From Candidatus Nitrosymbiomonas proteolyticus (GTDB lineage: Bacteria > Armatimonadota > Fimbriimonadia > Fimbriimonadales > Fimbriimonadaceae), in NCBI GenBank assembly GCA_017347465.1, contig AP021858.1, positions 1,320,472 to 1,384,471 of the forward strand: DNA of 64,000 bases, given 5' to 3'. The notes beneath the pieces were generated by a model. It worked only from the letters and a program-made list of their open reading frames with translations. It was not told where the DNA came from and made no database searches. How positions within the stretch are numbered: position 1 is the stretch's first letter; each line of letters begins with the position of its first letter. Made by a program: the position numbers and the translations under genes. Of the stretch, positions 13,793-17,551 are shown piece by piece.

Positions 13793-14685
13793 GGGGTTCT
13801 GCCCCCGCGCGCCGCCGTACCGAGCGCAACCCCGAACCCAAGAAGCAGCGCCGTCGCCGCGACGCGAGTTTCCGTTCCGGGGGGAGGCTTGAGGACCGTC
13901 TTTCCGGGGCTTCCTTCAAATTCGATCTTCGTCACGTTGCCTTCCGCGTCCAGAGTGAGCGTGGCCACGCTGGCGCTGACCGCTCCCAGTAGCGCGGGCG
14001 AATCGCCGTCGAGAGACACGTTTCCTCGTAAGGTGAGGGTTCCTTTGGCGTTCTCAAACACGAGGTGATCGGTCGAACCCTTGAGCGTCGAGGTCTGAGC
14101 CTGTCCTTCCTTGACCTCCTTTCGGGTCCACTGAAACGTGACGCCGCCCTTCAGTTCGAATTGAGTCATTCCGAACCTCGCAGGCTTGGCTGCGTTGGGC
14201 GCGGCGAGCGCGGCGCTTCCTGAATTGCCCTTGGCCGAAAACGAAACCCCCGCTGCAGGGTCGGACTGCCTGAGCGCGACCGCGGACTTAAGTGTCCAGG
14301 TAAACGACTGGGCGAGGTACGTCGCCGATCCTGCTTCGACCTCCACGGATTGGACCGCCGACGCGCCCTGCGCGCTTGGGAGCTTCTGACGGGCCCACAC
14401 AGCGCCCTGGAGGTCGGCGGAAATCAAGGTCAGGAGTCCCTCTGCCTGAACGGAGGCGCTCCCCGACAGCGAGTTCGTCCGGAGTTCGATCCGCTGGCCG
14501 GCCCATTCGGCCTGCAGCGGCTTGCCTTCGCCCTTAAACTCGACGAGCGAATCGCTCACCCGGTGAATCACGAAGCTCGTCCAGTTCTTGACGGACATGT
14601 TGTTGCGCTTATCGACGAAAACGCCGTCTTGGGCGAGCGTGGTGGCAGCCAGCAGCACGATCCCCAACCCTATAGCCAGCCTCAA
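13789..14685 (-). CDS. lptA: LptA/OstA-like periplasmic LPS bridge protein
   Basis: A 298-residue exported protein in the position of LptA. It has a signal peptide (RLAIGLGIVLLAATTLAQDG) and then a beta-rich OstA-like body that would form part of the jellyroll bridge carrying LPS across the periplasm. Unlike classical LptA (about 160-185 residues), it is nearly twice as long and ends in a hydrophobic stretch near 270-290 followed by basic residues, so it may be membrane-anchored at the C terminus. The start is TTG 14685, which overlaps the lptC stop as TTGA and has GAGGTG 5 nt upstream. Assignment relies on operon position and beta pattern more than on sequence identity. Confidence 0.72.
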   Translation of the reverse strand: MRLAIGLGIVLLAATTLAQDGVFVDKRNNMSVKNWTSFVIHRVSDSLVEFKGEGKPLQAEWAGQRIELRTNSLSGSASVQAEGLLTLISADLQGAVWARQKLPSAQGASAVQSVEVEAGSATYLAQSFTWTLKSAVALRQSDPAAGVSFSAKGNSGSAALAAPNAAKPARFGMTQFELKGGVTFQWTRKEVKEGQAQTSTLKGSTDHLVFENAKGTLTLRGNVSLDGDSPALLGAVSASVATLTLDAEGNVTKIEFEGSPGKTVLKPPPGTETRVAATALLLGFGVALGTAARGGRTP

Positions 14686-15245
14686 CCCTTCACCTCGCGG
14701 GACTTCGCAAAAAGGTCGGGCGTTCCTGCGCGGCGAAGGTCCGGCGAGCACCATAAGGTCTCGATCGGTCCTAACTTGTAGTCGCGAGACTCGAGCCTGA
14801 CTCCTCCGGAGGCTTGGATGACCTCAGAATCGGCGAGCCATTTCACTTCGCTGCAAAACACGGTCCCGTTGGGGTTCAGCGCCTCGACCCAAACGTGCCC
14901 CCGCAGGATCAGCGTGTCGGACGCTTTGTCCGCATACGCCGAATCGGCTCGAAACTCCGCCACGGGCTCGTTCTTGGCGTAAAGCGCTCCGCTGACGTGG
15001 TCCATTTTCATGCTGAACTCCTCTGCTTCCGAATACTCCAAGTCCGCGGTTCGCCATCGAACCGACCAAAGCTTGGGACGGTCCTCCCCCTTGCCGTAGC
15101 GAACCAGTTCGGCGGTTCCCGTCGAGACGGTGCTGACGGTCCGCGCCCCCTCGGGTTCGCTCGATGTGTCTTTGGGAATGCCGGGCGAGCCGCACCCCGC
15201 GCCGATTCCTATGGCGGCGATCAGGCTGAGACAGGCAAACCTGAT
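14682..15245 (-). CDS. lptC: LptC-like periplasmic protein, probable lipoprotein; start codon unusual
   Basis: An LptC-like protein of about 187 residues that would link the LptB-LptF pump to LptA. A membrane-spanning or lipoprotein signal (ACLSLIAAIGIGAGCGS) is followed by a beta-rich domain with the LptC/YrbK-type pattern (LYAKNEPVAEFRADSAYADK and DTLILRGHVWVEA). The Cys in GAGC could be lipidated. The start is unclear. A perfect AAGGAGG site at 15254-15260 points to AUC codons at 15248 or 15245. The only canonical in-frame option is TTG 15299, which has no ribosome site, gives a 20-residue n-region and overlaps rlmN by 79 nt. The coordinates here use AUC 15245. Confidence 0.75.
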   Translation of the reverse strand: MRFACLSLIAAIGIGAGCGSPGIPKDTSSEPEGARTVSTVSTGTAELVRYGKGEDRPKLWSVRWRTADLEYSEAEEFSMKMDHVSGALYAKNEPVAEFRADSAYADKASDTLILRGHVWVEALNPNGTVFCSEVKWLADSEVIQASGGVRLESRDYKLGPIETLWCSPDLRRAGTPDLFAKSREVKG

Positions 15246-16297
15246 GATTTCGACCTCCTTGCGAACCGACCCTGATGCTCTCCTGCCAGTTGCCCACAAG
15301 CCGCGGCGACGTCGTGCCCGCGCTCCACTCGCTGCGTCACCTGGACTCGGCGGGACTCCAAGACCCTTCGAAACTTGCGGATCGCCTCGGGCTTCGGGCG
15401 CGCGAAACCCTCATCTGTGGAAACGGCGTTGTAGGGAATCAGATTGACCACGTGCGGCACGCCCCGGAACAAGCTGGCGAGCCGTTCGGCCTGTTCCTCG
15501 GTGTCCGTCACCCCCGCGATCAGCAAGTACTCGACCGTGATCTTGCGGCCGGTTCGCGCTTGATAGTCCTTCATCGCCTGCACAACTTCACTTACGGGCC
15601 ATCGCTTATTGACGGGCATGAGGGTGTCGCGGATACGGTCGATCGGGGAATGCAGCGAGAGCGCCAAGTGAATCGGAAGCTCCAACTCCGCAAGTTCGCG
15701 AATCTTGGGCACGATGCCCACGGTCGAAAGGGTCATTCGACGGTAGCTGATCCCTGCGTGTTCGTGAAGGAATCGGAGCGCCTCGACGACATGAGCGAGG
15801 TTCAAAAGCGGCTCCCCCATCCCCATCATCACGAGGTGGCTGATCCTTCGATCCGTGAGCCTCTGGAGTAAGACGAACTGGCTGACGATCTCTTGGGGCG
15901 TCAGGTCACGGTCGTATCCGCCGAGCCCGGTCGCGCAGAACTTGCATCCCATCGGGCAGCCGACTTGCGAGCTGAGACAACAACTCACCCTGTCTTCGAA
16001 CGGCAATAGCACGCACTCGAACGACTGCTCATCGCCGCCGTGGACCAAGAGCTTGTGAACCCCGTCTCGGCTGACGACGTGACGTCCGATCGAGAGGGGA
16101 TCGATGCGGAATTGGGTCGAGAGTTCGGCTCGCAAGTCCGCTGGGAGGTCGGTCATCTCCTCGAAGCTGCCGGCTCGTTTTTGGTAGATCCATCGAAAGA
16201 TTTGCCGGGCGCGCATCGAGGCATCGGATCGAGGCGCAAGCCAAGTCTGAACCTCGCTCAGTCCTTGCCCGACCATCGCCCGACGCTCCGCATCCAC
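15221..16297 (-). CDS. rlmN: Dual-specificity 23S rRNA/tRNA adenine C2-methyltransferase
   Basis: RlmN, a radical-SAM enzyme that methylates C2 of A2503 in 23S rRNA and A37 in some tRNAs. The 358-residue protein has the N-terminal RARQIFRWIYQKR helix-turn region, the radical-SAM CxxxCxxC cluster (GCPMGCKFC), the MGMGEPL motif, LSLHSP, and the conserved C-terminal Cys in DVAAACGQL. The tail extends about 20 residues beyond that Cys. Start GTG 16297 is chosen because it lies 7 nt after a TACACT hexamer; ATG 16276 is an alternative. It heads the lpt operon, and its 3' end overlaps lptC. Confidence 0.94.
   Translation of the reverse strand: MDAERRAMVGQGLSEVQTWLAPRSDASMRARQIFRWIYQKRAGSFEEMTDLPADLRAELSTQFRIDPLSIGRHVVSRDGVHKLLVHGGDEQSFECVLLPFEDRVSCCLSSQVGCPMGCKFCATGLGGYDRDLTPQEIVSQFVLLQRLTDRRISHLVMMGMGEPLLNLAHVVEALRFLHEHAGISYRRMTLSTVGIVPKIRELAELELPIHLALSLHSPIDRIRDTLMPVNKRWPVSEVVQAMKDYQARTGRKITVEYLLIAGVTDTEEQAERLASLFRGVPHVVNLIPYNAVSTDEGFARPKPEAIRKFRRVLESRRVQVTQRVERGHDVAAACGQLAGEHQGRFARRSKSSGLPVSA
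15254..15260 (-). promoter_or_regulatory. Perfect Shine-Dalgarno site before lptC
   Basis: AAGGAGG lies inside the 3' end of rlmN and 5-8 nt before two consecutive AUC codons in the lptC frame. No ATG, GTG or TTG follows in that frame at a usable distance. Confidence 0.55.
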
Positions 16298-16304
16298 GGG
16301 CTGG

Positions 16305-16310
16305 AGTGTA
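16305..16310 (-). promoter_or_regulatory. -10 element of the rlmN-lpt operon (leaderless type)
   Basis: TACACT on the minus strand ends 7 nt before GTG 16297. It sits in an 18-bp sequence (16302-16319) that is repeated exactly before the SRPBCC gene at 22080-22097. Confidence 0.5.
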
Positions 16311-16398
16311 CCTTTGAGGGCTTGGCTGCTCGGGAACGCCCGCCCGCTCGTTTCGAGTTCGTGTTTAAGAAGGTGATTCGCAGGGCAACGGACCTGGG

Positions 16399-16404
16399 TA
16401 TCGT
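16399..16404 (+). promoter_or_regulatory. -10 element of the htrA-like gene (leaderless type)
   Basis: TATCGT ends 7 nt before GTG 16412, with TTCGCA 16-17 nt further upstream as a weak -35. No ribosome-binding site lies between. Confidence 0.4.
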
Positions 16405-16411
16405 TGAAAAC

Positions 16412-17551
16412 GTGTCGAAGAGCAGACCTTCTTGGCTCCTCATGGCCGGTCTTGCGCTCGCGGTGTTCGTAGGCGTGCTTGCCGCGCTTCGAACCAGCCA
16501 TTGGCTCGACCGCAATGGGACAGAGGAACTCATGCCCCTGCTGAGGCTGGAAGACGGCATGGAGGTCCAAGAGAACGGCTCGGTCGCCGCTCCCGCGGAC
16601 TTTCGCGCGGCCGTCGAGAAGGTCCTTCCTGCGGTGGTGAGCGTCGATCGCCTGAGTCGGATGTACGATTTCTTCGACGATGAAGTGCGGATCGCGCCTT
16701 CGGGCTCAGGCTCGGGGGTCGTCATCAGTTCCGACGGCTACATCGTCACGAACAACCACGTGGTCAGGGGCGGGGATACCATTGCCGTCCGCTTCAAAGA
16801 TGGAAGGACTTTGGTGGCGGAGATTGTGGGTGCGGACCCGCGCTCCGACCTCGCGCTTCTCAAGGTCGAGGCGAAAGACCTGACTGCGGCTAGGGTGGGC
16901 GATAGTTCCAAGCTGAGAATCGGGGAGTGGGCCATCGCTTTTGGCAACCCGCTCGGATATAGCCACACCGTGAGCGTCGGGGTCATCAGCAGCCTCAATC
17001 GGACGATGGAGACTCCGGGCGGGGTGCTCGTCGATGCGATCCAAACCGACGCCGCGATCAATCAGGGCAATTCAGGCGGGCCGCTCACCAACGCGCAAGG
17101 CGAGGTAATTGGGATCAACTCAGTCATCGTGAGCAATTCCGGCGGCAGCATCGGACTTGGGTTTTCGATTCCCTCCAACCGAGTCGCGCGGGTGGTCAAC
17201 GACTTGCGGAAGCATGGGCGAGTTCGGTATGGCTATTTCGGCGCGGAGACGTATTCGGATAGCGCCGTTCTGCAAAACGACCGCAACCGCGCCGTCCTCA
17301 AAGGCGAGCTTGGAGTCGACCCTCCGCGTGAGGGGCTCTTGGTGCGGTCGGTGTACCGCGACAGTCCCGCCCAATCCGCAGGGATTCAGCGATGGGACGT
17401 AATTCAGCAATTGAACGGCAAGCCGGTCCGAAGTACGATGGACTTGTATTTGGTTCTCCTCGACCTCCGCGCCGGAGACGTGTTGAAGGTGAGGCTCTGG
17501 TCGAAAGGCGCGGCCAAGACGCTCGACGTGCGACTGGTCGAAGCGCTGTAG
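16412..17551 (+). CDS. Membrane-anchored HtrA/DegP-type serine protease
   Basis: A 379-residue trypsin-like periplasmic quality-control protease. A single N-terminal helix (about 8-27) anchors it. The S1C protease domain has His116 (TNNHVV), Asp146 (DPRSDLALLKV) and Ser221 (GNSGGPL). One PDZ domain follows (about 275-375, with SPAQSAGIQRWDVI), so the layout is like DegS or HhoA rather than two-PDZ DegP. Start GTG 16412 gives a positively charged n-region and lies 7 nt after a -10 hexamer; an ATG at 16442 would shorten the anchor. It is divergent from rlmN. The role is probably degradation or sensing of misfolded envelope proteins. Confidence 0.93.
   Translation: MSKSRPSWLLMAGLALAVFVGVLAALRTSHWLDRNGTEELMPLLRLEDGMEVQENGSVAAPADFRAAVEKVLPAVVSVDRLSRMYDFFDDEVRIAPSGSGSGVVISSDGYIVTNNHVVRGGDTIAVRFKDGRTLVAEIVGADPRSDLALLKVEAKDLTAARVGDSSKLRIGEWAIAFGNPLGYSHTVSVGVISSLNRTMETPGGVLVDAIQTDAAINQGNSGGPLTNAQGEVIGINSVIVSNSGGSIGLGFSIPSNRVARVVNDLRKHGRVRYGYFGAETYSDSAVLQNDRNRAVLKGELGVDPPREGLLVRSVYRDSPAQSAGIQRWDVIQQLNGKPVRSTMDLYLVLLDLRAGDVLKVRLWSKGAAKTLDVRLVEAL

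Follow-up and report, generated by a model that had tools for sequence, protein, structure and literature searches.

A predicted AUC start codon for lptC within the rlmN tail, recurrent in the family of Candidatus Nitrosymbiomonas proteolyticus

The lptC locus and its neighbours

The window, a stretch of 64,000 nucleotides from Candidatus Nitrosymbiomonas proteolyticus of the phylum Armatimonadota (contig AP021858.1), belongs to a genome of 2.81 Mb in a single contig. Its minus strand carries, in this order, rlmN, lptC, an lptA-like gene, a gene for an lptB-like ABC ATPase and a gene for an LptF/LptG permease. The rlmN gene was identified by its match to TIGR00048 (363.7 bits). The LptC protein of the window scored 15.2 bits against TIGR04409, for which the cut-off is 38, and was by itself unmatched by PF06835, a family matched by 16 of the 18 aligned LptC members (best E 2.1e-9). 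The neighbourhood of lptC, with the ABC ATPase and the LptF/LptG permease encoded downstream, fits the order lptA-lptB-lptF; the lptA-like gene had no Pfam or NCBIfam match and is named for its position. Among the relatives, the lptC frame is far longer in L014 (genome G021; 448 codons), L080, L084, L142 and L146, perhaps by fusion with the next gene.

The features around the start of lptC are the following:

15221..16570, minus strand: rlmN open frame, stop codon 15223-15221
15297..15299, minus strand: TTG, sole canonical upstream codon in the lptC frame, over the rlmN Ala-Cys codons, without Shine-Dalgarno sequence (SD)
15254..15260, minus strand: SD AAGGAGG, overlying the AGG AGG (Arg-Arg) codons of the rlmN tail
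15246..15248, minus strand: adjacent AUC, alternative start one codon upstream, 5 nt 3' of AAGGAGG
15243..15245, minus strand: AUC, likeliest (predicted) lptC start codon, 8 nt 3' of AAGGAGG, aligning with relatives
14682..15245, minus strand: lptC read from AUC 15245, 187 codons plus stop, with a lipoprotein-type signal
15194-15192, minus strand: signal Cys codon of lptC

The open reading frame listed for lptC runs from TTG 15299 to 14682. A preliminary description of this DNA had proposed that a perfect AAGGAGG precedes two AUC codons in the lptC frame, and this was confirmed at 15260-15254, with spacings of 5 nt (AUC 15248) and 8 nt (AUC 15245). The SD is followed by TCGAA, the two AUC codons and a lipoprotein-type signal that extends to Cys 15194, and the rlmN stop codon starts 22 nt after AUC 15245 does. 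The species has a second assembly (CP054189.1, isolate H1_ARM1; L031), identical at 731 of 739 bases, which retains AAGGAGG and both AUC codons, and their presence in two assemblies argues against a sequencing error. Homology favours the second AUC (15245-15243), which aligned with the start of relatives, AUC CGN, and, in the rlmN tail, with a Ser-x-Leu-Pro, over AUC 15248 as the likely lptC start. Tandem AUC AUC codons were also seen in L013, L052, L064 and L146.

Start codons of lptC among relatives

In the following, AUH stands for AUC, AUU or AUA, f1 for the family of the window and f5 for its sister family. With the window protein as query, lptC was detected in 80 of 85 f1 genomes; a profile search of the class (113 genomes, in this collection identical to the order) found it in 105, of which 82 belong to f1. 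The start region was viewed in 79 f1 loci, reduced to 78 by L045, which is cut by a contig end, and start labels were given by hand. Outside these 78 genomes stand L045 and the genomes G034, G036 and G080, in which the start was not read. The orientation of seven loci (L079, L140, L142, L143, L144, L146 and L147) was taken from the rlmN motif, and L025 and L046 were placed from search coordinates.

The 78 f1 starts comprise 48 AUC, 4 AUU, 24 canonical and 2 unclear; two of these genomes are of the window's own species (L032 is counted within the 48 AUC) and L036 was entered as AUC despite an odd signal region. The alignment of the start region across relatives, suggested earlier as a check, thus placed AUC or AUU at the site in 52 of 78 f1 genomes. 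Of the 30 f1 genera, 23 have one or more genomes with such a codon, and 6 are canonical only. Since 24 of the 78 genomes have a canonical start, the AUC is dispensable. Six f5 starts were read: AUC in L146 and L149, AUA in L084 and L147, TTG in L142 and an unclear start in L150. In f2/f3, L140, L143 and L144 have ATG on the rlmN stop; in the remaining f2 loci the rlmN motif was absent from the fetched stretch or lptC was more distant.

Starts were left unassigned in L054 (GTC or ATT), L055 and L150. At the homologous position L054 (G082) has GTC, which also serves as the start of sigR, directly preceded by ATT. In L055 (G062) an SD and an ATC persist at the rlmN end while the lptC match lies ~300 nt beyond; they are possibly a relict of an old start.

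AUH codons behind the SD of the rlmN tail

A comparison anchored on the SD core in the rlmN tail was made with the 81 f1 and f5 loci, of which 9 had no rlmN motif and 15 no core, so that 57 were used; L031 and L032, near-copies of the window, were excluded. An AUH codon in the lptC frame was found 3-10 nt past the core in 51 of these 57 loci, which share ancestry and are not independent trials, against a background of 2.04% AUH among 31,748 codons of that frame in rlmN bodies. AUH behind the rlmN-tail SD exceeds chance. By spacing, AUH was found in 27 of 49 loci at 5 nt, 23 of 49 at 8 nt, 2 of 49 at 2 nt and 0 of 49 at 11 nt. The spacings 5 and 8 repeat because the frame of the SD is fixed by one gene and that of the start by the other. 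The six anchored loci without AUH at 3-10 nt are L034 (AUC past a second core), L044 (ATG), L059 and L142 (TTG), L054 (GTC) and L040 (none).

The comparison showed that position, SD, AUH class and a 22-28 nt overlap with rlmN recur for the predicted start in most f1 genera read and in f5. The proposal that lptC starts at AUC is supported by this recurrence of codon, SD and position across the family.

Canonical codons upstream of the AUC

Upstream starts were counted in 53 AUH loci whose rlmN tail could be read, L032 among them; L072 (AUU) and L079 (AUC) were set by hand. In 20 of the 53, the stretch from the last in-frame stop to the AUH codon contains no ATG, GTG or TTG; the other 33 have some canonical in-frame codon upstream. 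An SD match of at least 5 precedes such a codon in just 3 of the 33, in each case at least 119 codons upstream. The lptC frame is closed 1-11 codons before AUH in seven loci, opening 1 codon upstream in L071, 3 in L035, 4 in L065, 8 in L003 and L042, 9 in L038 and 11 in L018.

These counts bear on the possibility that lptC starts at TTG 15299 and that the AUC is an internal Ile codon. TTG is a permitted start codon in an open frame, and the equivalent place reads TTG (15), GTG (9) or ATG (7) in 31 of the 53 AUH loci. However, this place reads NTG because the Ala-Cys codons of rlmN create it, and it is CTG in the 22 other loci. Moreover, a start there would put 18 residues before the lipoprotein-type signal, and the 20 loci lacking any canonical upstream start include seven with a stop at most 11 codons away. 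The preliminary description had held TTG 15299 to be the only canonical in-frame upstream start, one without a ribosome site; both points stood, as no SD match of at least 4 precedes it. Residue conservation between TTG 15299 and the AUC, named there as the finding that would speak against the AUC, was looked at and, given the 20 of 53 loci, does not refute it. A start at TTG 15299 is very improbable.

One codon in two reading frames

The bases of the lptC start codon occupy rlmN codon positions 3, 1 and 2, and the rlmN stop lies 22, 25 or 28 nt past the AUH codon in 49 of 53 loci. The lptC start site is thereby one codon read in two frames: in RlmN, AUC gives Ser, AUU gives Leu or Phe, AUA gives Tyr or stop, and AUG gives Cys, Trp or stop. 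The Arg pair of the tail is written AGG AGG in 28 of 53 AUH loci versus 1 of 21 canonical loci (the 53 AUH loci of this count and of the Ser count below leave out L032 and L147 and take in L080); AGG makes up 7.0% of the 1,820 Arg codons of rlmN bodies. Three loci with AUU or AUA (L028, L029 and L080) retain the start class with an altered RlmN residue. The rlmN tail is readable in 17 canonical f1 loci, of which 12 start at an NTGA that overlaps the rlmN stop; the rlmN motif was absent from the stretch in the 7 other canonical f1 loci (12 of 24 NTGA overall). Canonical codons at the AUC place itself occur in L044, L059 and L142 only.

It could be argued that RlmN's need for the tail Ser (Ser-x-Leu-Pro) alone conserves the AUC and that lptC starts elsewhere. 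LP(V/L) is a frequent ending of the rlmN tail, even where the start of lptC is elsewhere, and a TCN Ser codon supplies the UC of AUC. The A of AUC, however, is an rlmN third base; A stands at 12% of 22,512 third codon positions of rlmN bodies, yet AUH was found in 51 of the 57 anchored loci. Relatives with AUU and AUA do without the Ser. By a crude pattern, Ser two residues before LP (or VP/IP) is present in 22 of 53 AUH tails versus 1 of 21 canonical tails; the Ser therefore tends to accompany the start codon, and a need for Ser is an even less probable account than a TTG start. Least probable of all is a -1 frameshift out of rlmN yielding an RlmN-LptC fusion: relative to rlmN, lptC is indeed in the -1 frame, with an SD-like sequence present, but an in-register XXXYYYZ heptamer occurs in just 9 of 53 loci (six of these at least 39 nt upstream), the lptC frame is shut 1-4 codons before the AUC in L071, L035 and L065, and the lipoprotein signal would be buried in the fusion.

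Translation of lptC thus very probably begins within the rlmN tail at AUC 15245, possibly at AUC 15248. By comparison, the sole plausible start of lptC is AUC, AUU or AUA, which places it among predicted AUH-start genes.

Near-cognate starts in infC, ymdB and the genome at large

A known near-cognate start is that of infC, which begins at AUU, AUC or AUA and is autoregulated by IF3; Myxococcus infC starts at AUC, and pcnB of E. coli at AUU. Gene finders depend on AUG, GUG and UUG, and AUH starts are therefore easily missed.

Of 40 infC matches 30 were read, all by eye, 21 of them from f1 and f5. All 21 appear to have an AUH start: 14 AUA and 1 AUC (L097, the window's genome) in the 15 f1 loci, and AUA or AUU in the 6 f5 loci. 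An additional in-frame ATG lies further down in 5 of the 21. In the infC loci (L087-L116) the start often stands behind GAGGTGA, which combines an SD with an in-frame stop. The preference of lptC for AUC and of infC for AUA may be due to AUC reading as a harmless Ser in RlmN.

A ymdB-like metallophosphoesterase gene of the window's genome (L125:12024; G000:C1:732024) has no canonical start in reach and looks like starting at ATT behind GAGGAG; ymdB of genome G006 (L180) seems to start at ATA. As a further conserved AUU gene ymdB was rejected, since 28 of 30 loci read have ATG, GTG or TTG near the place. AUH starts, as predicted here, are rare in the window's genome yet occur outside lptC and infC as well.

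To see whether AUC starts are in general use, 20 segments of 20 kb each and the window itself were surveyed, together 464 kb or about 16% of one genome. Of the 327 genes called there, 85 show an SD match of at least 5 at a canonical codon. A match of at least 6 precedes ATC in 6 of 359 cases (two being lptC), ATT in 1 of 141, ATA in 2 of 34, CTG in 6 of 285, ATG in 26 of 387, GTG in 7 of 255, TTG in 8 of 253 and other codons in 136 of 11,012. Within these 464 kb, ATC is not clearly over-represented after SDs; for ATA the numbers are too small for a judgement. A scan for coding regions that lack a canonical start returned 15 frames, most of which looked antisense by eye. A special initiator tRNA dedicated to AUC (GAU anticodon) was set aside, as none of the 44 GGGNNGATNNCCC sites lies, by coordinates, inside the 45 tRNA genes; the CAU initiator pattern has one site, within a tRNA-Met gene.

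Evolutionary history

An RlmN tree of 82 rows was built by a quick method with the tail omitted, and 36 of its 79 inner branches are open. The tree requires at least 13 changes of start class, 12 of them within f1 and f5. The simplest reading would be one gain of AUH before the f1/f5 split, followed by repeated losses, a direction beyond the proof of this tree. SD and AUH were jointly present in 49 loci and jointly absent in 12, with 6 having the SD only and 3 AUH only; on independent supported tree pairs, of which there are only 2, the tie between SD and AUH was not significant. As judged from the predicted starts, AUH persisted in most of the genera read.

A possible role of the weak start codon

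In the mechanism proposed here, the ordinary initiator tRNA would initiate lptC at AUC 15245 (possibly 15248), with the 30S subunit positioned by the strong AAGGAGG, which overlies the codons for Arg-Arg in the rlmN end. The weak codon might hold LptC synthesis low and responsive to IF3, as in infC, the strong SD offsetting part of the loss, and AUC would leave RlmN a harmless Ser where AUG would yield Cys, Trp or stop. The literature describes that IF3 disfavours weak third-base pairs (PMC10158994), that the GUC start of sigR is repressed by IF3 and that the Streptomyces infC start is AUC (both PMC5472188), and that SDs raise re-initiation at coupled genes (PMC2268962). Low, IF3-sensitive synthesis of LptC through the AUC is a tentative proposal. 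It is likewise conceivable, though somewhat doubtful, that lptC of f1 and f5 is a second long-conserved AUH gene beside infC, selected for IF3-sensitive initiation.

A better chance, not far short of even, is given to the view that the AUC is the true start but is retained because it overlaps rlmN, or through drift in a lineage tolerant of near-cognate codons, with no useful IF3 control. It shares the AUC start with the mechanism above and contests only the IF3 part. In the 12 of 17 canonical f1 loci with an NTGA start, lptC begins outside the tail; the AUC place holds a canonical codon just in L044, L059 and L142, and an in-tail AUG would give RlmN a Cys, a Trp or a stop. Tolerance rather than control is possible also because AUH starts crop up singly in ymdB, as AUU and as AUA. 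On the other side, in L084 the AUA is followed by A, so that rlmN would stop with AUA or AUG alike, and AUA is present; AUH is also maintained across genera.

Comparison with known systems and significance

As in infC, the predicted near-cognate AUH start of lptC is retained across the lineage, and AUH starts of infC occur in the same families. Unlike infC, which prefers AUA there, lptC prefers AUC; it is an envelope gene, and a self-regulating loop of the infC type is therefore not expected. Like sigR of Streptomyces (PMC5472188), lptC has a conserved non-canonical start outside infC, one predicted by sequence comparison; sigR differs in using GUC and in being experimentally proven. Like genes with the NTGA start-stop overlaps and translational coupling treated in PMC2268962, lptC begins at the end of the upstream gene, and 12 f1 genomes use the NTGA form itself. 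The AUH start differs from such overlaps in that the rlmN stop follows 22, 25 or 28 nt later (49 of 53) and in mostly having its own strong SD. Among the matches listed from the open-licence PMC literature, no AUC start of lptC was found in titles or abstracts. Near-cognate starts are already known from infC and sigR, and the comparison suggests that lptC is a further case.

The occurrence of AUC or AUU in 23 of 30 genera means that such a start can be stable and not an accident, and suggests that a very rare start signal can last long in an ordinary envelope gene. The lptC loci offer a natural series of AUC, AUU, AUA, AUG, GUG and UUG with which it can be tested why a weak start is kept. If IF3-sensitive initiation of lptC were true, lipopolysaccharide export would be coupled to the condition of the translation initiation machinery.
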